Below are positions 13,763 through 43,950 of a DNA stretch of 64,000 bases, one piece after another. The stretch is taken from the NCBI RefSeq assembly GCF_009296315.1, contig NZ_WHLY01000002.1, positions 1,798,001 through 1,862,000 on the forward strand, written 5' to 3'. The notes under the pieces were generated by a model. It searched no databases. It was not told the DNA's origin and saw nothing but the letters and a program-made list of their open reading frames with translations. The DNA comes from Salmonirosea aquatica. GTDB taxonomy: Bacteria > Bacteroidota > Bacteroidia > Cytophagales > Spirosomataceae. Positions within the stretch are counted from its first letter, which is position 1, and every line of letters begins with the position of its first letter. Both the position numbers and the translations under genes were made by a program.

Positions 13763-14758
13763 ATGAAAATTAGCGTAATTATGCCGGTATACAATGGTGA
13801 ACTCTATCTTAGGGAGGCTATTGAGAGCATACTGGGACAGACTTATACTGATTTTGAATTTATCATCATTAATGATGGCTCAACGGATACCAGTGGAAGT
13901 ATAATAGATTCCTATAAAGACTCCCGGATTAAGCATATTAAAAATGAGAGAAACGCCGGCCTTGTCTCTGCGTTGAACGTAGGCATTGATCTGGCTCAGG
14001 GTGAGTATATAGCTCGAATGGATGCCGATGACATCAGTCTCCCGGAAAGATTTGCCAAACAGGTTGCTTTTATGAACCAGCATACTGAAGTAGGCGTCTG
14101 TGGTACTGCTTACCAATATATTGGAAATAGGAGCGGCACTATAACACTGCCAGAGAGTTTTGAAAAGTCTTTTACGTTTCTATCCAGCAATTCTTGCCTG
14201 GCTCACCCCACTGTTATGATCCGGCGGGCTGTCTTAGAACAGCATTCCATTCGTTACGAAAATGATTACCCTTACGCGGAGGACTATGCCTTTTGGATCA
14301 GGATCGGGCAGGTTGCCCATCTCACTTCTCTAAGTGAACCCCTACTGAGTTATCGATGGCACTCGGCCAATATCAGCCAGTCCACCAACAGACAGTCCCA
14401 AAGCCGGGCAAGGGCGCGCATACTATGGTATGAGTTGGCATTAAAATGTCCACTGAGTGATCTCCAAGCTAATTATTTGGAGAAAAAGAAACTTTCTTGG
14501 GAGGTATTTAAGGCCGGGAAAAAGCTTATAAAAAGCATACTAAGTGCTAAAATCACACTGCCTGTCGACTACGATTACTACGGCAAACTGGCCGTTACAG
14601 AGTGGGAACTGGAAATAATCGATCACTTTGGCCTTCGGGGCGTGATTGCTTGTCTTATAGATTTAGTATTTAGAAAAAAAGGTACTCCTACTGCCATAGG
14701 CCTAATCGCATACTATATTCATCGATTCGGCGTAAGTTTGGCATTGGGGATAAAATAA
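13763..14758 (+). CDS. Family 2 glycosyltransferase
   Basis: Transfers a sugar from a nucleotide donor to a growing glycan at the cytoplasmic face of the membrane. The GT-A start MKISVIMPVYNGELYLREAI, the NDGSTD motif near residue 37 and the metal-binding ARMDADD near 90 are all present. HPTVMIRR and EDYAFWIRIG follow in the expected acceptor region. The 331-residue length is normal. The next gene starts about 11 bases downstream, indicating an operon. Confidence 0.92.
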   Translation: MKISVIMPVYNGELYLREAIESILGQTYTDFEFIIINDGSTDTSGSIIDSYKDSRIKHIKNERNAGLVSALNVGIDLAQGEYIARMDADDISLPERFAKQVAFMNQHTEVGVCGTAYQYIGNRSGTITLPESFEKSFTFLSSNSCLAHPTVMIRRAVLEQHSIRYENDYPYAEDYAFWIRIGQVAHLTSLSEPLLSYRWHSANISQSTNRQSQSRARARILWYELALKCPLSDLQANYLEKKKLSWEVFKAGKKLIKSILSAKITLPVDYDYYGKLAVTEWELEIIDHFGLRGVIACLIDLVFRKKGTPTAIGLIAYYIHRFGVSLALGIK

Positions 14759-14769
14759 TATTGATATTC

Positions 14770-15956
14770 ATGCGTAAGCTGCAAGCCCTTGTCAACCATA
14801 TATTTCTGCTTCCCAAGTTGGCTTTTACTTGGTTTGGCATTAAGGCTATATCAGATCAAACCGGCTTGTTCTGCTTTTTTCCCTATTACCAGACCGGGGG
14901 TTCGGAACGCGTGCATGCCGATATTCTGCAAAGTGTGAGCGAAGCAATTCCTAGGGAACATCTAATTGTTTTTTTTACTAAGCCCTCAGATTCAAATACT
15001 TTCAAAAGTTTTTTTTACAGAGTTGCCCGGTGTTTCGAAATCGCAGGATTAGATCGCTCGAAATACCGCCAGATTTTTATCCGACTGATAAGTCGGGTTA
15101 TTAACAACTGTCCCAACCCAACCGTATTGGGTGCAAATGCCACTTATTTATACGAGATAATTCCCTATTTAAAAGCGTCAGTACGAGTGATTGACCTGAC
15201 ACATTCGTTTGTACCTGAATCCAATAACCCGATTGAGCTAGCTAGCCTACCCTACGTACACCGCCTGGCGAAGCGGGTGGTCATCAACCAGGCTGTCAAA
15301 CGGGATTACGAGCGCCTCTATACCAAGCACGGCCTAGCGCAAAAGGAATGGCTGGAGCGAATTGAAGTGATTCATAACCAGCTAAGCTGCCCGCCCTGGG
15401 ATCTTGCAAAAAAAAATTACGACATACCTCCTTTGAGAGTGCTGTTCGTAGGTCGGAATAGTCCTGAAAAGAGGATTTTGCTCCTAGGTCAAATTGCCCA
15501 CGAACTGCGTCATGAACCAGTGGAGTTTACCCTTGTCGGCCCCCAACTCGCTCAACGCGTTGATCCGGAGCATCGCGACTACTTTTCCTTCCAAGGAGAA
15601 ATTACCGATCCTGAAGTACTGATAAACCTATACAAAAAACATCATGTCGTTCTGATCACTTCACGACGGGAGGGCTTTCCATTGGTTCTGGCTGAGGGCA
15701 TGGCCCATGGAGCATTGCCAATGGCCACTAACGTGGGGGCATTGCTCAACATGTAACGCACCAGACGAACGGGTACCTTATTGAAAATCACACCGACGAA
15801 GCCAAAATCGTAAAAGAAGCAGCTGGCTATATAAGACAACTTCTTGCAAATCCTGGCAAGCTGTTGGCAATGGGAAAAGCGGCTCAGCAAGAGGCATACC
15901 ATAGCTTCAGCCCGGCGATTTTTGCCGAAAAATGGAATGAACTATTGAATACCTAG
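14770..15956 (+). pseudogene. Family 4 glycosyltransferase with single-base frameshift
   Basis: The frame from the ATG at 14770 encodes a GT4-like protein: glycine-rich YYQTGGSERVHADI near residue 40, LFVGRNSPEKR near 225, and the donor-site motif TSRREGFPLVLAEGMAHG near 300. It then runs into a stop at 15754-15756. The next expected residues, GGIAQHVTHQTNGYLIEN, continue in another frame and end naturally at TAG 15954-15956, 3 bases before the next gene. Adding one G to the five-G run at 15735-15739 restores the whole protein. The loss removes about 65 residues including part of the donor site. A sequencing or assembly error is also possible. Confidence 0.82.
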
Positions 15957-31237: not shown

Positions 31238-31918
31238 ATGATGCTGCTGCAAGCACTTACCGATTCTACTATGGCTGCCCCGGTGGCGGATCAGGGCCTT
31301 TCCCTTCTTGACTTGTTGATGAAAGGCGGCTGGGTAATGCTGCCACTCGGTTTCCTGTTCCTGGTAACGATTTTCCTGATGGTGGAGCGCTGGATCGGCA
31401 TCAATGCCAATGCCAAAATCGAAGATTCGTTTGTGGATAATGTGAAGGATTTTATTCAGCAGGGCAACCTCAAGTCGGCCGAGTCGCTGTGCCGCAATCA
31501 GAAAAACGCCGCCGGACGCATTCTGGAGCGCGCCACCGGACGCATCGGGTACCCTATCAAGGATATCGAGACGACCATCGAAAACGCCAGCCAGATCGAG
31601 TTGCAGCGGATGGAGGGCAACCTGTCCTACCTGGGCGTCATCGCGGGTATCGCACCCATGCTGGGTTTTGTAGGTACCATTGCGGGAATCATCCGGATTT
31701 TTTATGATATCTCCATTTCCAACGATTTCAATATCAGTACCATTTCGGGTGGTATGTACGAGAAAATGATCACCTCGGGTTCAGGTCTGATCATCGGTCT
31801 GATCGCCTACGCAGGGTACCACCTGCTCAATATGAAGATCGACCGCTTTGCGCTGAAATTACAGATGGCCGCTTCGGACTTCCTGGACGTACTGCAACGC
31901 CCCGTCGCTTCGCGGTAG
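31238..31918 (+). CDS. exbB: ExbB/TolQ/MotA-family proton channel protein
   Basis: Inner-membrane proton-channel subunit that, with ExbD, powers TonB or Tol proteins. Three membrane helices are visible: GGWVMLPLGFLFLVTIFLM near residue 30, LGVIAGIAPMLGFVGTIAGII near 130 and SGLIIGLIAYAGYHLL near 185. The conserved GMLGFVGT-like region reads PMLGFVGTIAGI. The 226 residues match the family. exbD follows 149 bases later on the same strand, and the TonB-domain array lies convergently beyond it. Confidence 0.92.
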   Translation: MMLLQALTDSTMAAPVADQGLSLLDLLMKGGWVMLPLGFLFLVTIFLMVERWIGINANAKIEDSFVDNVKDFIQQGNLKSAESLCRNQKNAAGRILERATGRIGYPIKDIETTIENASQIELQRMEGNLSYLGVIAGIAPMLGFVGTIAGIIRIFYDISISNDFNISTISGGMYEKMITSGSGLIIGLIAYAGYHLLNMKIDRFALKLQMAASDFLDVLQRPVASR

Positions 31919-32067
31919 TTTTTAAGCGTAGTTCCTCGTTTAGAGTTCCATGATTTGCAACGCAAATACCGGAACTTGGCCATTAAAACAAATTCAGAAG
32001 ATATGAATACCAGCATATCGGTTCAGGTATCTCATCCTTCATATCTCATAACTCATATCTAACAGAC

Positions 32068-32460
32068 GTGAAAATACGCAGAAAAGCCCGGTTTGCACCC
32101 GAAGTGTTCACGCACTCGCTGAACGACATCATGTTCTTCCTGCTGCTGTTCTTTTTGATCATCTCCACGATGGCCAACCCGAACGTCATCAAGCTGATGC
32201 TGCCCAAAGCATCGTCGTCGCAGCAGGTCTATAAGAAGCAGATCACCTTGTCGGTGGACGAACAGAAGAATTACTACATTGATAAGGACCCAATTCCGGT
32301 TGGACAACTGGAATCGCAGTTAGCCTCCATTTTTGCCAATGTGGAGGAACGTACCGTGGTACTGCGGGTAGATAAGAATCTGGCAGTACAGGACCTGGTA
32401 GACGTACTGGAAATCGGCGCCAAGCTGGATATCAAAATGGTAATGGCTACGGCGCGTTAA
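32068..32460 (+). CDS. exbD: ExbD/TolR-family biopolymer transport protein
   Basis: Partner of ExbB. A short basic cytoplasmic start is followed by the single membrane helix HSLNDIMFFLLLFFLIIS with the proton-path aspartate Asp20, and then the periplasmic TolR-like domain (KKQITLSVDEQKNYYIDKD, VLRVDKNLAVQDLVDVL). The frame starts at GTG 32068, and no ATG lies upstream in frame, so GTG is the start. The 130-residue length is normal. A strong bidirectional terminator follows. Confidence 0.92.
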   Translation: MKIRRKARFAPEVFTHSLNDIMFFLLLFFLIISTMANPNVIKLMLPKASSSQQVYKKQITLSVDEQKNYYIDKDPIPVGQLESQLASIFANVEERTVVLRVDKNLAVQDLVDVLEIGAKLDIKMVMATAR

Positions 32461-33989: not shown

Positions 33990-34171
33990 GAGCGGAAAGG
34001 GTTTAGTTGGATACTGGAAAAGTAGGACGACCGATTACAATACGGCCGGAGTATGAAATAAGGCTACGCAGAGTTGCCACTTCTAAACCGAAAAAGCGCA
34101 GAACCTTTCGATTCTACGCTTGCGATTTTTGCACTTCTTCTGAAAGACTTGCCGTCAGGTTTATCGGAAAG

Positions 34172-34621
34172 TTAGATAGTGGGTTGCTTTTTCAACTGAA
34201 AGACAACCGGCAGGTTGTACCTTACGGCCACCTCCTTACCATCTTCCCGACCGGGTTGCCATTTCGGCATCTTTTTCACCACGCGTTCGGCTTCTTCATC
34301 CAGGCCATAACCGACGCCTTTCAGGACTTTCACATCGCGGATTTCGCCGGTGGAGCTTACCACAAAAGATAGAAATACCTTGCCCTGTACATTGGCTTTC
34401 CTGGCCTGTTCGGGATACAGGATGTTGTTGCCCAAAAACTCGTACATGGATTGAAAGCCGCCGGGGAATTCGGGTTGCTCGTCCACTAGGGTATATACCT
34501 TTTCGTCGAGCGGGGAATTTTCCGTTTCAAGATTGGTGCCCGAGGCCATTTCCGAGTTATTGTTGCAGCCATAAAAAGTCAGGGCGCAGGCCGCCAGTAG
34601 CGTTAGCAGTTTCTTTTTCAT
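34172..34621 (-). CDS. Lipoprotein with TonB C-terminal domain
   Basis: A 149-residue lipoprotein (lipobox FYGC, Cys19) made almost only of a TonB_C domain: EQPEFPGGFQSMYEFLGNNI, YPEQARKANVQGKVFLSFVV, GEIRDVKVLKGVGYGLDEEA and MPKWQPGREDGK. It lacks the transmembrane anchor and Pro-rich arm of a real TonB, so it cannot span to ExbB. It is the smallest member of the TonB_C array and starts 26 bases after the adjoining M56 gene, so is probably co-transcribed. Confidence 0.85.
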   Translation of the reverse strand: MKKKLLTLLAACALTFYGCNNNSEMASGTNLETENSPLDEKVYTLVDEQPEFPGGFQSMYEFLGNNILYPEQARKANVQGKVFLSFVVSSTGEIRDVKVLKGVGYGLDEEAERVVKKMPKWQPGREDGKEVAVRYNLPVVFQLKKQPTI

Positions 34622-34647
34622 GGTATTTCCTTCATAAGTACCTTAGA

Positions 34648-36528
34648 TTAATCTTTCTTGAACCGGCTAGCGGGAAAAATGATCATGGTCGGAGGAGTCA
34701 CATCAGAAAATACCTTTTGGGAAGAATAAGGAGAATAATTGGAAAACCGCATTCTTGAGGTACCCCCCATGCCGGGAATATTGACTTCCGGCGCACCCAA
34801 ATCTCTGATGCTTGCCGGCGAGCCGGAATCAAATGCATTTTCAAACTTGAACTCAGGCATCTGATAATTAAAGTATTTGGTGGCGTTCCCCTGCCGCTTT
34901 TCCTTGTCTTCTTTTGATTCAGGCTTTTCCAGTTTGAATTCGATCGGTAGCACATACTCCATCGCTACCGGGCGCCCATTCTGTTGAGCGGGCTTCCAGG
35001 AGGGCATATTCAGCACCACGCGCAGGGCTTCCTCGTCGGTGCCATCGCCCAGTCTTTGGGTCACCTGCGGATCACGGATACGGCCCTTTTCGCTCACGGT
35101 AAAGGCAATTACCACTTTCCCTTCCACGTCGTTCCGTACCGCGTCGGTAGGGTACTTGATGTTGCGGCCCAGGAATTTGTACATTTCCTGAATCCCACCC
35201 GGAAACTCGGGCATTTGTTCTACTATCGTGAATCCATCTTTGGCTGGGCTCGATGGGGTATTATCGGCACCGGGTTGAGGTTTCAATCCTGTTATCGGGG
35301 GGTAGGCGACCACCACCACATCTTGCAGAGGATTCTGCTGCCATGCCAACACCACATTCACGGCCTGATTTTTCTTGGTGATCTCCACCACCCTCGTTTC
35401 GTACCCCACGTAGCTGATCGCCAGTTTGCTGTCGAGGGGTACCTCTTTTAGCTCAAAGGCCCCGTTGGCATCCGTGGTAGCTCCGCGTGAGGTACCTGCC
35501 ACGATGACGTTGGCACCCGGCAAGAGTTCTTTGGTTTTGGAACTACGGACGGTACCTTTCACCGTTGTGGTTTCGGCCAGGGGTACCTCCGGTAGTGGTG
35601 CCCGCGAAGAAGTGGCCGAGGGCAAAACCCGTGTATTATTTCCCAGTGCATCCGTAACGCGTTCGCGGGCGGCGGTAAGCATCAGTACGAGGCCAACCAA
35701 CGGGACTATGGCGAGGTACTTACCCAGGGCCCATTTCGAGTTTTTGTTTTTGTAAAGCATGGTAATTCGGTTTTTGACGAAGGAAGATGTAAAAAATTGA
35801 TTGGTCAGGTCGGGTACGGATGTGTGGAAGGCGTACTCCATCAGGAAACGGGCGTAGCCGTCGCGTGATATAGCGGTTTCGCGGTCGGCGAGGTACTCGT
35901 GGATTTGTTGCAACGATTTTTTGTATAAAATTAAAACCGGATTGAACCAGAAAACTACCCGAAGTACCTCCACCAAAAGTATATCCCAGCTGTGCCGCTG
36001 CTGTACATGTACCAGCTCGTGGTTCAGAATAGTGTCAAGATTTTCGGCGTAGTCGGTGCGATTGATGACAATCCATTTCATAAAAGAGAAAGAACCAGTA
36101 CGGTCGTCATCTAGCAAGACCAGCATGTATCCATCCATCGGGATGCGTTCGCCTTTTTGCAGAAACGAAAAGAGCGTTCGGAATTGTAGCCCCAGCCGGA
36201 CAAGCAGCAACATCGCTCCGACTGTATACACAACCCACAAAAGTACCGGCCAGGAAAGCATCACTTCCTCGGATTGAGAATACACCACAAAAGCAGGGGG
36301 CGCACTCACTGCGACGGGTAGTGTTGCGGCAGCGTAGGCGACTGTCGGCATCACGGGAGCCGCTTCGGGGTACTGTACCATCGGCAAACCCAACGACAGC
36401 AACAAAGCCCCAAGCAGGTAGGCACGATTCCAGCCGAAAAAGGTGTGGCGGCCGAGCAAAATCCAGTAACAACCGTACAGCACGATCCAGTACAAGCTTA
36501 CTTTTCCGAGGTAAATGAAGAATTCCAT
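34648..36528 (-). CDS. M56/BlaR1 peptidase - carboxypeptidase-regulatory - TonB C-terminal fusion (array copy 4)
   Basis: A membrane sensor-protease of 626 residues. Membrane helices lie at about 5-23, 34-50, 92-116 and 270-287. The zinc site HELVHV (His170, Glu171, His174) is in HELVHVQQRH, with the downstream HEYLADRE region near 210 supplying another ligand. A carboxypeptidase-regulatory-like repeat follows at about 322-405 (GTVRSSKTKELLPGANVIV), then a TonB_C domain at about 445-530 (EQMPEFPGGIQEMYKFLG). The last 90 residues are low complexity and, unlike copies 1 and 3, have no plug-like ending. BlaR1 homologues cleave BlaI-type repressors on sensing an envelope signal. Confidence 0.9.
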   Translation of the reverse strand: MEFFIYLGKVSLYWIVLYGCYWILLGRHTFFGWNRAYLLGALLLSLGLPMVQYPEAAPVMPTVAYAAATLPVAVSAPPAFVVYSQSEEVMLSWPVLLWVVYTVGAMLLLVRLGLQFRTLFSFLQKGERIPMDGYMLVLLDDDRTGSFSFMKWIVINRTDYAENLDTILNHELVHVQQRHSWDILLVEVLRVVFWFNPVLILYKKSLQQIHEYLADRETAISRDGYARFLMEYAFHTSVPDLTNQFFTSSFVKNRITMLYKNKNSKWALGKYLAIVPLVGLVLMLTAARERVTDALGNNTRVLPSATSSRAPLPEVPLAETTTVKGTVRSSKTKELLPGANVIVAGTSRGATTDANGAFELKEVPLDSKLAISYVGYETRVVEITKKNQAVNVVLAWQQNPLQDVVVVAYPPITGLKPQPGADNTPSSPAKDGFTIVEQMPEFPGGIQEMYKFLGRNIKYPTDAVRNDVEGKVVIAFTVSEKGRIRDPQVTQRLGDGTDEEALRVVLNMPSWKPAQQNGRPVAMEYVLPIEFKLEKPESKEDKEKRQGNATKYFNYQMPEFKFENAFDSGSPASIRDLGAPEVNIPGMGGTSRMRFSNYSPYSSQKVFSDVTPPTMIIFPASRFKKD

Positions 36529-36584
36529 GTGACGCGTGGGCTTGTCTTATTATATAATCATATTCTATATATGGATTTCGAATG

Positions 36585-36615
36585 GCTGTGGCACGGGTTT
36601 GAGCCGTGCCACAGC
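36585..36615. repeat. REP-like palindrome, copy 1
   Basis: GCTGTGGCACGG at 36585-36596 and its complement at 36604-36615 around a 7-base loop, in the gap between two M56 genes. Its GTGGCACGG core recurs at 38410-38442 and 41491-41523. Confidence 0.8.
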
Positions 36616-36631
36616 TTGCTCCATTCAGAAA

Positions 36632-38377
36632 CTAGTTCTTGTCCGATTTTTTGGTAAAAACCTGCACAACCCCATTTGCTCCTTTTTCACCGTAGAGCCG
36701 CCGGGCCGTAGTACTATTGAGTACCCTAACCGATTGCAATTCGTCCATCGTGAGGTCTTTCATGAAATCCCGGTTTTTCATGGGCATAGCGTTCAAAATG
36801 TACAGGGCATTTTGCAAGGTGTCGTTATGGAATATGCGATAGTTTACGGTACGCCGGTCCCGGTTGTATTTGGGGTAATATTTGACTACCGCCACACGGC
36901 TTCTCTCTCCATCCAGATTCACCTGCGTCTCCAGGGTACCTACCTTGGCGGGTGCAACGATTGTTTTGTAATCAGACAGTTGAAAATCAAGCGTCATTTC
37001 GTAATGCATGGCTACGTTCTTACCATCTTTCTGGCCGGGTACCCAAGCTGGCATGGCAGCTATAAGCCGTAGCGATTCTTCTTTAAGCCCGAAGCCCGGA
37101 TCTTTCAAAATCTCCACATTTTGTATTTCTCCGGCCTCCGAAACCACAAAATTCAGCAGCACTTTCCCCTGCACATTCGAACGGACTGCGCTCGCCGGAT
37201 AGGTTACCTTTTGGCCCATGAACTTCTGCATGGCTTCGTTTCCACCAGGAAACGAAGGGGAGTAATTTTTGTCTCTAATAAAGTGGTAAGCAAATTGTTC
37301 AGGCTCGGATTTCAACGGAATTTCGTCAGAAAATAGGTTAGGAATGAACTGACCGAATCGTGTGTCTCCTACCCCAGCCAGAATTATCCTTTCTTCTAAT
37401 TTGGCTATAGTACTCTCAGAAGGAATAGAAAGCGTATCGTTTTTAGAAAGATCGGACTTCACAACGGCTGGCTTAAAAGCCATCATTAACGATACGAAAC
37501 TTATCAGCACGACCACGGCGGCGTACTTGCCCAGTGCCCAATTTGAGTTTCGGTTTTTGTAAAGCATCATAATGCGGCTTTTTAAGTGGGAAGGATTTAG
37601 GAAATTATTGGTCAGCATATTCGCCGGATTGTTCAGCGCGTAGGCTAGCAGGAAATGGGCGTAAGCTTCGCGTGCGAGGGCGGTTTCACGGTCGGCCAGG
37701 TACTCATGGATTTGCTGCAACGATTTTTTATACAAAATCAAAACCGGGTTGAACCAGAAAAGTACCCCCAGTACCTCCACCAGCAGAATATCCCAACTGT
37801 GCCGCTGCCGTACGTGCACCAGCTCGTGGCTCAGAATAGTGTCGAAATTATGGGCGTAATCGGCGGGGCTAATGACAACCCAGCGCAGAAACGAAAAGGA
37901 ACCGCGCACGCCCAGGTCACCAGGGTGCGAAAGAACCAGCGTATAGTCTTCCATGTCAATCCGCTCACCTTTTTGGATGGAGGAAAAAAGCACCCGGCCT
38001 TGAAACACCAGCCTCCCCAGCATAAACAACGCACCGGCCAGGTATGATGCCCCTAAAACATCTGCCCACGGGAAGGGCAAGTCGGTGGGAGCATCAGTAT
38101 TTGCTACAATGCGGGAGACTGGAGCCGAAGTAGTTTCTACTACCGCAGTCGTCGCAGTTTTCAGCGGCAGGGCAGTCAGTTCATAAACCGCCGCCGGAAC
38201 TGGTGGGACAGTGTCGGTATAATTCACCAATGGTAAGCCTAAGGATACAATCAGTGCGCCCAGCAGGTAGGTGCGGTTGAGGATGAAAAAGGTGTGACGG
38301 CGCAGCACGAGCCAGTAGCAAGCATACAGGATTACCCAGTAGAGGCTGACTTTGGCGATGTAGGTGAGGATTTCCAT
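36632..38377 (-). CDS. M56/BlaR1 peptidase - TonB C-terminal - plug-like fusion (array copy 3)
   Basis: A 581-residue paralogue. The start at 38377 (MEILTYIAKVSLYW) aligns with the other copies; the longer frame begins in a repeat-bearing gap. Zinc motif HELVHVRQRH has His184, Glu185 and His188. A membrane helix near 292-310 (ALGKYAAVVVLISFVSLMMA) precedes a linker, then the TonB_C domain (PSFPGGNEAMQKFMGQKV, near 400-490). The last 55 residues, with ALYILNAMPM and LQSVRVLNSTTARRLYGEKG then ANGVVQVFTKK, resemble the plug of SusC-type TonB receptors. No carboxypeptidase-regulatory repeat is seen in this copy. Confidence 0.9.
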   Translation of the reverse strand: MEILTYIAKVSLYWVILYACYWLVLRRHTFFILNRTYLLGALIVSLGLPLVNYTDTVPPVPAAVYELTALPLKTATTAVVETTSAPVSRIVANTDAPTDLPFPWADVLGASYLAGALFMLGRLVFQGRVLFSSIQKGERIDMEDYTLVLSHPGDLGVRGSFSFLRWVVISPADYAHNFDTILSHELVHVRQRHSWDILLVEVLGVLFWFNPVLILYKKSLQQIHEYLADRETALAREAYAHFLLAYALNNPANMLTNNFLNPSHLKSRIMMLYKNRNSNWALGKYAAVVVLISFVSLMMAFKPAVVKSDLSKNDTLSIPSESTIAKLEERIILAGVGDTRFGQFIPNLFSDEIPLKSEPEQFAYHFIRDKNYSPSFPGGNEAMQKFMGQKVTYPASAVRSNVQGKVLLNFVVSEAGEIQNVEILKDPGFGLKEESLRLIAAMPAWVPGQKDGKNVAMHYEMTLDFQLSDYKTIVAPAKVGTLETQVNLDGERSRVAVVKYYPKYNRDRRTVNYRIFHNDTLQNALYILNAMPMKNRDFMKDLTMDELQSVRVLNSTTARRLYGEKGANGVVQVFTKKSDKN

Positions 38378-38409
38378 GTGGTTAGTAACTAGTCTTTTTA
38401 TGAAATGAT

Positions 38410-38442
38410 AGCTGTGGCACGGCTCAAAGCCCTGGCACAGCT
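38410..38442. repeat. REP-like palindrome, copy 2
   Basis: Arms 38410-38424 and 38428-38442 pair with two mismatches around a 3-base loop; the left arm contains the shared GTGGCACGGCT core. It lies in the gap between an M56 gene and the CarboxypepD-TonB gene. Confidence 0.78.
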
Positions 38443-38456
38443 GGCTTCGCATAGAT

Positions 38457-39374
38457 TCAGTCTCGGGTGTTTGGAGTAATCAGGATTACCCCCTTCTGAC
38501 CTTGTTCACCGAATTGATCAGTGGCCGCTTTGCCTTTAAAAGCCTCCAGTTTCTTGATACCGAAACCCTGCAAGCCATCGCCTATTTCCTTCCCTTGTAC
38601 AATTTTTCCGTGTAGTATAAAAACCGGGTCCGATGGCGGGGTTTCCGTACTTCCGGAGGTAGCTGATGGCGAAGACTTTTCTTTCAGAACAAACCAAACG
38701 GGCAGCGTGAAAGGTACGGGTACCGTCTTACCATTCTGAATGCCGGGGTGCCAGCGCGGCATGGATAGCACGGCTTTCATCACTTCCTCATCGCAGCCGT
38801 AGCCCAGACTTTTGGTAATGCGCGGGCTACGGATATCACCGTTTTCATTGACGACAAACGAGATTTCTACCATACCCTGAATATCATTTTTTGCAGCCTC
38901 GGCGGGGTAACTCATCGTTTTGGCCAGGAATTGAACCAGGCCCAGATCTCCCGCTAAGTAAGACGGAGGCATCCTTAGGGCCACCATTCCCGGCTTTTCG
39001 ATCTCCCCAAACATATTTCGAATGGGGGGAGGTGGATCAAGGCGGGTGGAATAGTCCACCAATGTAAAGGAAAGCAACCTATCCTGTCTGCGCGGTAACT
39101 GGATGATCATCCGCTTTTGTCCGGCAGCGGCTACGTGGATTCGTCCGTAGGCCACGTGGTCAACTACCAGACTGTCGTCAGGATCTACCCTAGCCAGGGA
39201 AAAATAGCCCGTAGCATCCGTCATGGTGTACCCATGCCCCATATTCAGGACGCTCACCATCACGTCTTTGATAGGTTCACCCTGCTCGTCGTACACAAAA
39301 CCCTCGAAGGCGGAATTTTGCGCCCAAGCCGCTGGCAGCGTAAAAATAAATAGCAGGATGAGTAAGGCTTTCAT
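38457..39374 (-). CDS. Secreted carboxypeptidase-regulatory - TonB C-terminal - plug-like protein
   Basis: A 305-residue array member lacking the M56 part. A signal peptide (MKALLILLFIFTLPAAWAQ) precedes a carboxypeptidase-regulatory-like domain (EGFVYDEQGEPIKDVMVSVL, about 23-90), a TonB_C domain (YPAEAAKNDIQGMVEISFVV, GYGCDEEVMKAVLSMPRWHP, about 125-225) and a plug-like ending (FILHGKIVQGKEIGDGL, then LEAFKGKAATDQFGEQG and KGVILITPN). It reads as the periplasmic half of its M56 neighbours made as a separate exported protein, perhaps after loss of the membrane part. Same strand as the flanking M56 genes, with gaps of 37 and 79 bases. Confidence 0.8.
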   Translation of the reverse strand: MKALLILLFIFTLPAAWAQNSAFEGFVYDEQGEPIKDVMVSVLNMGHGYTMTDATGYFSLARVDPDDSLVVDHVAYGRIHVAAAGQKRMIIQLPRRQDRLLSFTLVDYSTRLDPPPPIRNMFGEIEKPGMVALRMPPSYLAGDLGLVQFLAKTMSYPAEAAKNDIQGMVEISFVVNENGDIRSPRITKSLGYGCDEEVMKAVLSMPRWHPGIQNGKTVPVPFTLPVWFVLKEKSSPSATSGSTETPPSDPVFILHGKIVQGKEIGDGLQGFGIKKLEAFKGKAATDQFGEQGQKGVILITPNTRD

Positions 39375-39411
39375 GAGTCTTTGGGTTTAGGCTTCAGCTC
39401 CTTTCCTCATT

Positions 39412-41397
39412 TCAAAACTTCAACCCAACCAGCCTATCCACCTCAGTGTTTACGCTGTTTGATTGTTCGGTGGCAACTACGTTTGCTTTGGATTTTTTCG
39501 AACGCGCCGAAAGTCCCTTTTCTTTTTTAGGAAGTACAAACGAAATCGGAAGGTTGTATTTCACGTTGACTTTCTGGCCATTATCCAATTCGCCGGGCTT
39601 CCATTTGGGCATGGCCGACACCACGCGAATGGCCTCCTCGTCTGTACCAAAACCCCTACCTTTCAGAATTTTGACTTGTGTAATTGCTCCATCGGCCCGT
39701 ACCACAAAAGTCAGGAATACCTTACCCTCCACATTGGCCCGACGGGCGGCGGCGGGGTACTTGACGTTATCCTGAATGAATTGGTACATGGCTTTGATCC
39801 CTCCGGGGAACTCGGGGTTTTCAGCGACGACAGTATATACGGAGTCTTGGGGGGAGTTGAGGGTAGGTTGAGAAATCGCATATTTAGAGCCTATATCTTT
39901 CTCTACACTAGCTGACACCCACCGGGCTGTAGAAGAGCTGGGCAATCCGTCCTGGATCAAAGTGGCATTGACAGTACCTTGCCCCTCAATTATAGCCACT
40001 GCCTTTTTATAGCCTGTAAAAGAATATTCCAACCATCCTTTCTTGGGGACTTCAATTCTGTACTCTCCTCTACTATCGGTAGTGGTACCCCTTTGTGTGT
40101 GCCTTATTGTAACAGAAGTTCCCGGAAGTGGTTTACCATCGGCACCAGATACATTTCCCTTAACGTAAACCAATGGCCCATTTTCTCCGGGGAAAGGTAC
40201 AGATGAATAGGAACCAGGTGAATCTGTACTTAATTCCAAGAGGTAGTCTACCTTTTTCTCTTCTTTCAAAACATTAAACGAAAAGGAGTTAAAGCCCGGA
40301 TAACCAACCACTACCTTTCCGCCGACAGGAGCTACTATTTTAAATCTGCCATCAGAATCCGTTTTTGTAATTAGTTCTGTTCCTTCTACTTCTATCGAAG
40401 CTCCTGGAATAGGCATCTGATCATCTCTAACTACCATTCCTTCAATTGTGACCTCCTTATCCGTTATAGCAGCTGTACTTTCATCGGCTTCACTAACCTT
40501 CCCCGCCTTCTGTTCGCAGGAAGCGGCCAATAGCGATACAAAGCCAACGAGCAGGGCAACGGCGGCGTACTTGCCCAGCGACCAGTTTGAATTTCGGTTT
40601 TTGTACAACATCATGATGCGGTCTTTTAGAAATGACGAGTTAAAAAAGGGATTAGCCAGTGCCGCCATCGGACTTCCTAACGAATACGAAACCATAAACT
40701 CGGCGTAGCGGTCGCGGGGTGTGGCGTCCCAGGCGCACACTTCCCGATCAGCAAGGTACTCGTGGACTTGCTGCAATGATTTTTTATACAAAATCAAAAC
40801 CGGATTGAACCAGAAAACCACCCGAAGTACCTCCACCAAAAGTATGTCCCAGCTATGCCGCTGCCGCACGTGTACCAGCTCGTGACTCAGAATGGTGTCG
40901 AAATTCTCGGCATAGTCGGTGCGGTTGATGACGATATAGTTCAGGAATGAGAAGGACCCCAGATGGTCATTCTCCAGCAAGCAGAGGCGGTAGAAGTCCA
41001 TGTCCAGGTAGGTACCCTGCTGGATAAAAGTCAAAAGCTGGCGAATATGGCGGAACAGGCGGACTGCCATTACCAGCCCCCCCAGCACGTAAACCATCCA
41101 AAGAAAGGTACCCCACGGGAACGGCTCAGTGACCGCAGAGGGTAGCGCCATAGCATTTTGCGGCGCTACGATTATGGTTTCAATCGGCTGGGTGGCCATC
41201 TCATACACGACCCCTGGTACGGGCGGAGCTACCTCGGGGTAGGGTACCTGAGGCAATATAAATGCCACTCCCAGCGCGCCGAGCAGGTAGACACGGTTGA
41301 GCACAAAAAAGGTGTGACGACGCAGCACGAGCCAGTAGCAGCCGTACAGCAGGAGCCAGTACAGGCTCACTTCACCGAAGTAGGTAGCCAGTTCCAT
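39412..41397 (-). CDS. M56/BlaR1 peptidase - two carboxypeptidase-regulatory repeats - TonB C-terminal fusion (array copy 2)
   Basis: The longest copy at 661 residues. Zinc motif HELVHVRQRH has His172, Glu173 and His176, with HEYLADRE downstream. A helix ending LAASCEQ resembles a lipoprotein-like junction and separates the protease from two carboxypeptidase-regulatory-like domains (about 297-375 and 395-475: GMVVRDDQMPIPGASIEVEG, VKGNVSGADGKPLPGTSVTI). The TonB_C domain at about 525-625 has ENPEFPGGIKAMYQFIQDNV. It ends in a basic tail without a plug-like region. At DNA level its catalytic segment is almost identical to that of copy 4. Confidence 0.9.
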   Translation of the reverse strand: MELATYFGEVSLYWLLLYGCYWLVLRRHTFFVLNRVYLLGALGVAFILPQVPYPEVAPPVPGVVYEMATQPIETIIVAPQNAMALPSAVTEPFPWGTFLWMVYVLGGLVMAVRLFRHIRQLLTFIQQGTYLDMDFYRLCLLENDHLGSFSFLNYIVINRTDYAENFDTILSHELVHVRQRHSWDILLVEVLRVVFWFNPVLILYKKSLQQVHEYLADREVCAWDATPRDRYAEFMVSYSLGSPMAALANPFFNSSFLKDRIMMLYKNRNSNWSLGKYAAVALLVGFVSLLAASCEQKAGKVSEADESTAAITDKEVTIEGMVVRDDQMPIPGASIEVEGTELITKTDSDGRFKIVAPVGGKVVVGYPGFNSFSFNVLKEEKKVDYLLELSTDSPGSYSSVPFPGENGPLVYVKGNVSGADGKPLPGTSVTIRHTQRGTTTDSRGEYRIEVPKKGWLEYSFTGYKKAVAIIEGQGTVNATLIQDGLPSSSTARWVSASVEKDIGSKYAISQPTLNSPQDSVYTVVAENPEFPGGIKAMYQFIQDNVKYPAAARRANVEGKVFLTFVVRADGAITQVKILKGRGFGTDEEAIRVVSAMPKWKPGELDNGQKVNVKYNLPISFVLPKKEKGLSARSKKSKANVVATEQSNSVNTEVDRLVGLKF

Positions 41398-41490
41398 AGG
41401 TTTAGGGTTGAATGGTCGATGGATAAAAGGTCAAGGACTATACTTTGCCTCTTTCTCAGGGTACCCTCAGTAGATCCATGAGCTTTTTTT

Positions 41491-41523
41491 ACTCGTGCCA
41501 CGGCTCATAGCCGTGGCACGAGT
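41491..41523. repeat. REP-like palindrome, copy 3
   Basis: A perfect 15-bp stem (ACTCGTGCCACGGCT at 41491-41505 with its complement at 41509-41523), loop CAT. On the gene strand it is followed by an A-run rather than a T-run, so it is not a classic terminator. Shares the GTGCCACGGCT core with the other two copies. Confidence 0.88.
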
Positions 41524-41533
41524 AGCGGAGGCT

Positions 41534-43369
41534 TTACTTTTTCTTCATATAAATCTCTATTACTCCGTTGGCCCCTTTTTCACCATAGGCTTTCGTGGCG
41601 CTTTCGCCTTTCAAAACATTGACTTTCTGTACATTATCAGGACCAACCTCCTTGATATCGTAGCCTTCTTTTTGCATCACCCCATCAATCACGACTCTTG
41701 CCTGGCCTACACCCGTGTAAATCATAGTCGGGCCCTCGGTTGATGGACCATTGAGGGTACCTTGCTCAACAAGTCCAACTTTCTTAGCGCTTTCATTGGC
41801 TTTTATTTCCTTAGTATTATCCAATTGAAAAGCAATAGGCAGGTTATACCGCACATTGACAGGCCTTCCGCTTTGCATACCCGGTTCCCACCGCGGCATT
41901 TTGGACATAACGCGAACCGATTCCTGGTCGGCCCCAAAGCCCAGTCCTTTCATAATCTGAATATCCTTGATTTCTCCTTCGCTGGTCACTATAAAGGTCA
42001 AAAATACCTTCCCTTGTACATTGGCTTTGGCCGCTGCCTCGGGGTACTTGATGTTTTCACCCAGAAATTTGTACATCGCCTGAATCCCACCGGGAAATTC
42101 GGGAGCTTTCTCGACTACTGTGAAAATGGGCGAACCGCCGAATGTTGAGGTTTGACCAGTAATTTTCACGGACTGCCCATCTGCCGACGGCGTGGACACC
42201 ATGTTGCTGGGTTTGTCGCCTTTGGAAGGCATCGTGAGGTCATAGTCTGTATTTTTGTACTTTCCGCTAATACCCATGATTATTTGACCATAGTCAGGGT
42301 GGCTCAACGTTAGGGCGCTGCCCGCCGGAACTTTGAGCGAAAACCTTCCGGCTTCATCGGTGATTGCGCCTTTCTTACCCTTACTATCCGTGATGACTGC
42401 TCCCCGCAGTGGTTTGTGGTCGGGAGTGTTGACGATACCCGTGATATTGATATCGCCTTTAACCATAGCCTCGCCATTGGCGGAGGTAGGCATTACTTCG
42501 CGTTCGCAGGAGGCCACCATCAGCGAGGCAAAGCCCACCAGCAGAGCCACGGCGGCGTACTTGCCCAGTGACCATTTCGAGTTTTTGTTTTTGTAAAGCA
42601 TAGCGATTCGAGGTTTTAAGAGTTTAGAATTGAAAAATTGGTTGGTCAACATGCTGGCAGGGGCGCCCAAAGCATACGATACCAGAAACTCGGCGTAGCG
42701 GTCGCGGTTGTCGGTCTGGGTCTGCTCCTGGACCGCCTGCCGGTCGGCCAGGTACTCGTGAACTTGTTGTATAGTTTTCTTATATATTATCAAAATCGGA
42801 TTGAACCAGAAAACTACTTGCAGGATTTCTAAAAAAAGAATGTCCCAGCTGTGCCGTTGCCGTACATGAGCTAATTCGTGGCTGAGAATCGTATCGAAAT
42901 TATGGGCGTAGTCGGCAGGACTAATGAAGATCCACTTCATGAAAGAAAAAGAACCGGTACGGGTCTGGTTATCACCCAGCAAAACCAGGGTATAATGGTC
43001 CATCGGAATGCATTCGCCTTCTTGCAGAAATGAATTCAAATGGCGGAAATGCTGGACCAACCGCACCGACATCACCACTACGCCGATGCCATAGACCAGC
43101 CAAACCAGGTTTTCCCACGTCAATAGCGAAGGCGATGGGGCTGCTGTGACCACTGAAAACGATACCGCCGAAACCTGGTACACGACGGGCATAGGCGGAG
43201 CGGATTCGGGATACTGCACCAGCGGCAACGCAAACGACAGTACCAGCGAACCGAGCAGATAGGTACGGTTCCAGCGCAGGAACGTGTGGTGGCGCAGGAA
43301 AAGTGCGTATAAAATGTACAGCGCAATCCAGTACGCGCTGAGTTTGGCAACATAGATGAGTAATTCCAT
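41534..43369 (-). CDS. M56/BlaR1 peptidase - carboxypeptidase-regulatory - TonB C-terminal - plug-like fusion (array copy 1)
   Basis: The first M56 gene after the BlaI repressor, 611 residues. The ATG at 43369 aligns with the MEL/MEI/MEF starts of its paralogues; 43375 adds two residues. Zinc motif HELAHVRQRH (His164, Glu165, His168 counting from this start), then a helix ending VASCE. A carboxypeptidase-regulatory-like domain (NITGIVNTPDHKPLRGAVI) precedes the TonB_C domain (EKAPEFPGGIQAMYKFLG, about 420-515). The end, with VVIDGVMQKEGYDIKEVGP, then VLKGESATKAYGEKG and ANGVIEIYMKKK, closely follows the SusC plug motif pattern. It is probably transcribed with blaI from the promoter at 43841-43870. 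Confidence 0.92.
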   Translation of the reverse strand: MELLIYVAKLSAYWIALYILYALFLRHHTFLRWNRTYLLGSLVLSFALPLVQYPESAPPMPVVYQVSAVSFSVVTAAPSPSLLTWENLVWLVYGIGVVVMSVRLVQHFRHLNSFLQEGECIPMDHYTLVLLGDNQTRTGSFSFMKWIFISPADYAHNFDTILSHELAHVRQRHSWDILFLEILQVVFWFNPILIIYKKTIQQVHEYLADRQAVQEQTQTDNRDRYAEFLVSYALGAPASMLTNQFFNSKLLKPRIAMLYKNKNSKWSLGKYAAVALLVGFASLMVASCEREVMPTSANGEAMVKGDINITGIVNTPDHKPLRGAVITDSKGKKGAITDEAGRFSLKVPAGSALTLSHPDYGQIIMGISGKYKNTDYDLTMPSKGDKPSNMVSTPSADGQSVKITGQTSTFGGSPIFTVVEKAPEFPGGIQAMYKFLGENIKYPEAAAKANVQGKVFLTFIVTSEGEIKDIQIMKGLGFGADQESVRVMSKMPRWEPGMQSGRPVNVRYNLPIAFQLDNTKEIKANESAKKVGLVEQGTLNGPSTEGPTMIYTGVGQARVVIDGVMQKEGYDIKEVGPDNVQKVNVLKGESATKAYGEKGANGVIEIYMKKK

Positions 43370-43428
43370 GATCATTTTAAGAGTTTAGTTTTAGGGCATA
43401 GGTCGAGCGCCGAGCATCAAAATATCCA

Positions 43429-43797
43429 TTACTCCTTCCCCTTTTTCATGATTTTCATGATCTCATCCAGTTCCTTTTGGTCGAGCGATTCTTCTTTTAC
43501 GAAGAACGATACCAGCTGCGGCAGGGAATTGTCGAAGTAGTTTTCCATCAACTGCTTCATCTCATAGCGCTTGTACTCGGCCCGGCTGATGAGCGGATAG
43601 TACTCGTGGGTTTTGCCGTAAGCCGTGTAGCCCACCACGCCTTTCTTTTCCAGAATGCGGATGATGGTCGAAACGGTATTATAGGCCGGCTTGGGCTCGG
43701 GCATTTCGGCTAGTACGTCCTTGACGAAACCTTTACCCATTTGCCACAGGATGAGCATGATCTCTTCCTCGGCGCGGGTTAGTGAGCGAATTTCCAT
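43429..43797 (-). CDS. blaI: BlaI/MecI/CopY-family transcriptional repressor
   Basis: A 122-residue DNA-binding repressor. The winged helix is in LTRAEEEIMLILWQMGKG and PAYNTVSTIIRILEKKGVVG; the C-terminal helices form the dimer. In the BlaR1/BlaI scheme the M56 protease cleaves the repressor between the two parts. It heads the array on the same strand, 59 bases before M56 copy 1. An inverted repeat covering its own -33 promoter box indicates autorepression. Confidence 0.93.
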   Translation of the reverse strand: MEIRSLTRAEEEIMLILWQMGKGFVKDVLAEMPEPKPAYNTVSTIIRILEKKGVVGYTAYGKTHEYYPLISRAEYKRYEMKQLMENYFDNSLPQLVSFFVKEESLDQKELDEIMKIMKKGKE

Positions 43798-43840: not shown

Positions 43841-43902
43841 CAAAGTTATCACTATTCAGTTAGTTTCAAAACTAAATGATTAGTTTTTTATATAAGTTAG
43901 TT
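43841..43902 (-). promoter_or_regulatory. blaI promoter with overlapping BlaI operator
   Basis: On the minus strand, TTTG at 43870-43867, 18 bases, then TAACTTTG at 43848-43841 fits the Bacteroidota promoter TTTG-N19-TAnnTTTG. The palindrome TTAGTTT-CA-AAACTAA at 43860-43875 overlaps the -33 box. Further TTAGTT half-sites lie at 43880 and 43897 on the plus strand. Repressor binding here would block RNA polymerase. Confidence 0.68.
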
Positions 43903-43915
43903 GATTAGAAAAAGC

Positions 43916-43950
43916 AAAAAGCCGCTTTGCGAAACGCAAAGCGGCTTTTT
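43916..43950. terminator. Terminator downstream of pyk (works on both strands)
   Basis: A perfect 16-bp stem, AAAAAGCCGCTTTGCG at 43916-43931 with its complement at 43935-43950, loop AAA, with A-run and T-run ends. It lies between the pyk stop and the blaI operator. Confidence 0.93.

Follow-up and report, generated by a model that had tools for sequence, protein, structure and literature searches.

Bacteroidota rely on TonB-dependent uptake. In many cases they possess numerous receptors along with several TonBs, and we know of no answer to the question of how cells match TonB to their receptors. A gene array in the 7.07 Mb genome of Salmonirosea aquatica poses a related question: what do four BlaR1-type membrane proteases sense if each of them carries a TonB C-terminal domain and all of them stand behind one BlaI-type repressor? 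We analyzed this array within a window of 64,000 nucleotides (G000:C2:1798001-1862000; positions below are those of the window unless stated otherwise) and compared it with loci of other genomes.

Organization of the array

The array comprises seven genes, all on the minus strand, with blaI at 43429-43797 and the TonB_C genes at 34172-43375. The 122-aa product of blaI is a BlaI/MecI-type repressor (Penicillinase_R, 1.7e-32) that aligns with MecI and BlaI through the cleavage region. It is followed by M4 (41534-43375, 613 aa), which combines an M56 protease with a SusC-NTE-like domain, a TonB_C domain and a SusC-plug-like tail, and by M3 (39412-41397, 661 aa), composed of M56, two SusC-NTE-like domains and TonB_C. 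C305 (38457-39374) lacks the protease and consists of a signal peptide, a SusC-NTE-like domain, TonB_C and a plug-like tail. M2 (36632-38377, 581 aa) carries M56, TonB_C and a plug-like tail; its ORF is open to 38452, and paralogue alignment suggests that the protein (MEILTY...) probably starts at 38377 instead. M1 (34648-36528, 626 aa) contains M56, a SusC-NTE-like domain and TonB_C, while T149 (34172-34621) is a predicted lipoprotein with TonB_C as its only domain. Pfam assigned TonB_C (PF03544) to six proteins with E-values from 7e-14 to 8e-22 and Peptidase_M56 (PF05569) above cut-off to M1, M2, M3 and M4. ORFs and Pfam thus confirmed, at these coordinates, the gene content given by a sequence-only reading of this DNA: six TonB_C genes, four of them with M56, and one BlaI. 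That reading had overlooked the SusC-type domains next to TonB_C, the twin operator with its promoter, the nearby exbB/exbD-type pair (31238-32460) and the occurrence of arrays in further genera, all described below.

Intergenic gaps within the array measure 26-136 bp, no terminator was found inside it on the coding strand, and the only promoter-like site precedes blaI. Terminator-like hairpins flank both ends, one followed by a T run beyond the last gene (34092-34121, minus strand) and one that belongs to the upstream pyk gene (43916-43950, minus strand). Taken together, these features make a single transcription unit plausible. Related palindromes with the core TGGCACGG...CCGTGCCA occupy three of the gaps (41490-41524, 38415-38437 and 36585-36615), each before an M56 gene; they are possibly mRNA processing or stabilizing elements. 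Allowing up to two mismatches, the 7 Mb genome holds four such palindromes and the reversed control five. Another locus (L020) has a similar hairpin behind its first M56 gene.

The arrangement in the array is not due to chance: of M56 genes the whole genome encodes nine and of blaI genes six, every M56 gene adjoins a blaI gene, and the ratio is 1:1 at five loci and 4:1 at the array. A scan of the genome contigs with one protein returned four distant loci only.

Conservation of the protease and repressor residues

The mechanism of BlaR1-BlaI has been reviewed (PMC7593790), and we carry it over to the array by homology. Across 83 M56-TonB_C proteins, the HExxH motif, the downstream Glu-x-x-Ala-Asp motif and a Phe aligned with F284 of BlaR1 were kept in 98-100% of the sequences. 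The zinc site (H164, E165, H168 and E205) was present in 100% of them, and HExxH as well as the downstream Glu and Asp were invariant. F245, which aligns with F284 at the autocleavage site of BlaR1, the residue mutated in structure 8exs, was conserved in 98%. One locus (L090, G031:C3) has its M56 gene broken into parts of 249 and 328 aa; one in-frame TAG was counted in the family search.

On the repressor side, the BlaI of the array could be aligned end to end with MecI, whereby F99 falls on MecI F102. The cleavage site of MecI is N101-F102. The array protein, a winged-helix Penicillinase_R protein with a cleavage-site Phe, has the features of a BlaI/MecI repressor. We infer that the array proteases would cleave it. 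This homology might suggest a conventional antibiotic sensor of the BlaR1 kind. By Pfam and structure matches, none of the four M56 proteins has a sensor domain of the penicillin-binding kind (class D beta-lactamase-like), and the operon contains no beta-lactamase. Because the sensor domain is absent, we rejected beta-lactam sensing, and an antibiotic-type sensor in general appears hardly credible.

A twin operator overlaps the promoter of blaI

Two ACTAN6TAGT operators precede blaI on the minus strand, exactly 20 bp apart: a proximal one (ACTAACTGAATAGT, 43851-43864) and a distal one (ACTAATCATTTAGT, 43871-43884). The proximal operator is flanked by TTTG (43867-43870) and TAACTTTG (43841-43848), which correspond to the -33 and -7 elements of Bacteroidota. 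The TAnnTTTG promoter, like the SusC-type domains, fits this phylum. The predicted promoter (43841-43870, minus strand) thus overlaps the proximal operator, which lies between -33 and -7 in the same place and with the same spacing at every array locus read. A TAnnTT(T/C)(G/A) box follows exactly 2 nt past the operator in 53 of 66 blaI loci, and a twin operator with equal spacing stands at blaI of all array loci read. These findings support the prediction that BlaI binds at the twin operator of the array.

The exact twin operator occurs twice in the whole genome, at the array and at a second blaI-M56 locus at 1211667 (L030, G000:C2:1211667-1213000), which lacks TonB_C. As both loci share the operator, their two BlaI proteins may cross-regulate. 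No twin sites with one or two mismatches were found genome-wide, and sites with three mismatches were fewer than in the reversed control. At the remaining four blaI genes, the twin pair is absent and other dyads are seen instead. A genome scan for a single operator plus promoter returned two exact sites, at the same two loci; as weaker matches were no commoner than in the reversed control, we do not claim a wider regulon.

Beyond this genome, the twin operator was detected in 97 of 121 genomes of the host's family (reversed control: one genome) and in 31 of 247 genomes of the phylum, every one of them in the host's class. When sites were fetched by the operator alone, 49 out of 58 lay before blaI, eight before a true tonB and one before neither. 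Among 29 further sites across the class, 27 had blaI-M56 behind them, mostly with one M56 gene. The twin operator is a mark of blaI-M56 loci throughout the class. It is also found at BlaI-M56 pairs without TonB_C; being general to such pairs, the operator alone is uninformative with regard to TonB.

Several individual loci deserve mention. At four of them (L067, L071, L073 and L090), the twin operator has blaI-M56 without TonB_C on one side and, 57-83 bp away on the other, a SusC-like receptor gene in divergent orientation, so that a single site may regulate a TonB-dependent receptor. At L099, two genes lie behind a run of blaI-M56 in the same orientation, a SusC-like one of 1085 aa and another of 511 aa. 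One twin operator (L117, around 9994) has no adjoining blaI, M56 or tonB; a very small ORF comes after it.

The outer domains resemble TonB and SusC

Comparison of M4 with solved structures yielded, in this order, BlaR1 (residues 142-267), the N-terminal region of SusC (309-373), the TonB C-terminal domain (440-512) and the SusC plug (560-611), and NCBIfam models gave the identical domain order. The outer parts of the proteases are thus chimeras of a SusC N-terminal extension (NTE) and a TonB tip, joined in two of them by a SusC plug; M3 has two NTE-like domains and M2 none. The top PDB matches of an AlphaFold model were the S. aureus BlaR1 structures 8exq and 8exp (Z about 14), followed by the NTE domain of SusC (9hfj) and the FoxA-bound TonB tip 6i97_D (Z 11.1). 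As the model was built on a shallow alignment of 12 rows (mean pLDDT 66, pTM 0.38), we used the domain folds and left the domain arrangement aside.

How close are these tips to TonB itself? Compared with the own TonB of the genome (L133), the TonB_C domain was 70% identical in M4, 68% in M3 and 63% in both M1 and T149. Between the two true TonBs of the genome, identity is 60%, and the own TonB shares 55-72% identity with TonBs of other genomes. Most array tips are therefore as close to TonB as TonBs are to one another. The tips of M2 (46%) and C305 (39%) have drifted from TonB. The array proteins have no single N-terminal helix of the ExbB-ExbD type and no proline-rich linker; their N-terminal part is either the M56 membrane domain or a secretion signal.

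C305, with its signal peptide, and T149, with a lipoprotein-type signal, both lack the protease part. The sequence-only reading calls for correction here, as both would be secreted proteins better understood as outputs or decoys than as sensors.

Homogenized proteases and distinct sensors

Arrays of M56-TonB_C genes, for which a search had been suggested along with the original reading, were indeed found in other genera. Relatives possess one to five M56-TonB_C genes at comparable loci, several of them also beside pyk. With five M56 copies in one relative, the array studied here is not unique. The five-protease array (L017) also includes, at 13945-14952, a 335-aa protein without array domains.

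For gene pairs within an array, M56 identity exceeded TonB_C identity in 32 of 36 cases (medians 61 vs 49; Wilcoxon p = 1.4e-7, for pairs that are not independent). Positional orthologues of the present array showed the reverse in four comparisons, with M56/TonB_C identities of 74/84, 64/73, 64/81 and 63/76; a fifth pair, from close relatives, was not reversed (90/86). Furthermore, five loci (L018, L021, L025, L039 and L114) showed a steep drop in nucleotide identity where the M56 domain ends, and at the first four of these synonymous divergence was far lower inside the M56 domain, as gene conversion or repeated replacement of the sensor would produce. The protease half is thus homogenized within arrays while the sensor halves stay distinct, and between genomes the TonB_C part of the sensor is better conserved. 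This is the pattern predicted by several inputs and one output, and we regard it as the strongest indication that one repressor receives the signals of different sensors. The earlier proposal of several sensors behind a single repressor gains support both from the homogenized proteases and from positional orthologues that keep their own sensor.

The same data bear on the idea that the proteins act mainly as effectors, with TonB tips in excess that would titrate TonB-dependent receptors or modulate them, and an M56-BlaI pair that serves merely for autoregulation. Such a role would suit an exact twin operator that is confined in this genome to the array and one other blaI-M56 locus, and it would also suit the recurrence of protease-less TonB_C members across many arrays. 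The zinc site retained in 83 of 83 M56-TonB_C proteins and the homogenized protease part speak against it, since they point to selection on protease activity, and we consider it quite improbable.

The operator precedes tonB and exbD in relatives

At eight loci, the operator pair was located 8-91 bp ahead of a true tonB, defined by a membrane helix, a proline-rich linker and TonB_C (one of them, L137, is cut by a contig end). At those of the loci that were read completely, the sequence immediately upstream codes for a C-terminus that is ExbD-like. Ten further loci show the operon order blaI, exbD, M56-TonB_C, with tonB next in several. Each of the two arrangements occurs in four genera. In the M56 tree, the sampled members of the tonB/exbD type (L104, L105 and L122) form one clade with 99% support, so that the regulatory link may have arisen once. 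No twin operator was found at the genome's own main exbB-exbD-exbD-tonB cluster, and the tonB output thus holds in relatives only. The link to the TonB system suggested by the sequence-only reading is supported by tip identities of up to 70% and by the tonB/exbD operators of relatives.

The array also faces, in convergent orientation, genes for an ExbB/TolQ-family proton channel protein (31238-31918, plus strand; PF01618, 4.1e-20) and an ExbD/TolR-family protein (32068-32460, plus strand; PF02472, 5.2e-27). Such a pair recurs at eight other loci. Here it stays below cut-off with the equivalog models for ExbB/ExbD as well as with those for TolQ/TolR, and no operator was found upstream of the exbB-type gene at 31238.

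The genes behind the operator also help to weigh a stress-sensing role, in which the TonB_C and SusC-like domains would bind loose beta-strands, or receptors that are misfolded or have not been assembled, rather than working TonB boxes, with the BlaI switch unchanged. The PDZ domain of DegS offers an analogue for the binding of misfolded or unassembled outer-membrane proteins. The NTE-like fold is also seen in a chain of the F. johnsoniae BAM complex (9n2d_E), and the beta-strand addition by which TonB_C domains bind their partners (PMC12204202) would suit exposed strands. Most tips, on the other hand, differ from the own TonB no more than TonBs differ between genera, and relatives carry the operator on tonB and exbD, with no chaperone or BAM gene seen behind it. 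We thus judge a sensor of envelope or outer-membrane-assembly stress to be unlikely.

A proposed switch for TonB capacity

We lean, by a narrow measure of confidence, towards the view that the operon is a proteolytic switch of the BlaR1/BlaI type, reworked to monitor the TonB import system and to tune TonB capacity to receptor demand. In the ground state, BlaI would sit on the two ACTAN6TAGT operators and block the array promoter, as the overlap of operator and promoter suggests. The four inner-membrane M56 proteases would share one type of cytoplasmic protease, with its catalytic residues intact, and differ in their outer parts, each predicted to present a TonB tip, close to real TonB in three of them, together with pieces derived from the SusC N-terminal extension or plug. 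As ligands we envisage TonB boxes or periplasmic receptor faces; the trigger may be engagement by the tip or, in the opposite direction of response, its failure to engage as TonB occupies these sites. A triggered protease would then cut BlaI at the conserved Phe and derepress the operon. The output in S. aquatica would be the array itself, including the two secreted TonB_C proteins, which might compete with TonB at receptors as decoys; in related genera, judging from their operators, it would also include tonB and exbD. The evolutionary pattern described above is in line with several such sensors acting on one repressor.

An extended version is tentative, and we would sooner doubt than adopt it: a multi-input circuit in which TonB look-alikes compete with TonB for receptors, gauge TonB supply against demand for each receptor class and, through the shared BlaI, reset TonB/ExbD in relatives or a TonB decoy here. 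The array is a concrete candidate for the matching of TonB to receptors: its repressor and operator are both defined, and it has a direct genetic link with tonB/exbD. If this is true, the BlaR1 protease-repressor module would be a general chassis for transenvelope signaling with a swappable sensor, rather than an antibiotic-resistance device.

Comparison with known systems

The M56-TonB_C family is already known from domain annotation. We found no paper in the open-access literature searched that reports experimental work on M56-TonB_C proteins or on control of tonB by BlaI. Three points are presented as new: the twin operator marks blaI-M56 loci throughout the class, relatives carry it at tonB/exbD, and within arrays a homogenized protease contrasts with distinct sensors.

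The closest counterparts are BlaR1-BlaI and MecR1-MecI of Staphylococcus (MEROPS M56), with which the array shares a transmembrane M56 protease with an extracytoplasmic sensor, an adjoining BlaI-type repressor, operators over its own promoter, a conserved zinc site and cleavage-site Phe residues. It differs from them in that the sensor is derived from TonB and SusC and is not penicillin-binding, four proteases are encoded per repressor, the operator is a tandem of ACTAN6TAGT, and a beta-lactamase target is lacking. TonB, which works with ExbB-ExbD, and the TonB paralogues of Bacteroidota have a C-terminal domain up to 70% identical to that of the array proteins, and the operator is common to the tonB/exbD genes of relatives; unlike TonB, however, the array tips are mounted on a protease and not on an ExbB-ExbD-driven helix with a proline-rich linker. 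With TonB-dependent receptors of the SusC/RagA type, the array proteins have in common the N-terminal extension and part of the plug domain, but they possess no barrel and carry these domains on an inner-membrane protease. Finally, in FecR/FecA-type transenvelope signaling and in DegS-RseP, an inner-membrane protein reads the state of the outer membrane and relays it. The array resembles these systems in such a reading from the inner membrane, whereas its relay would be a one-step protease-repressor switch with no sigma/anti-sigma pair in the operon.
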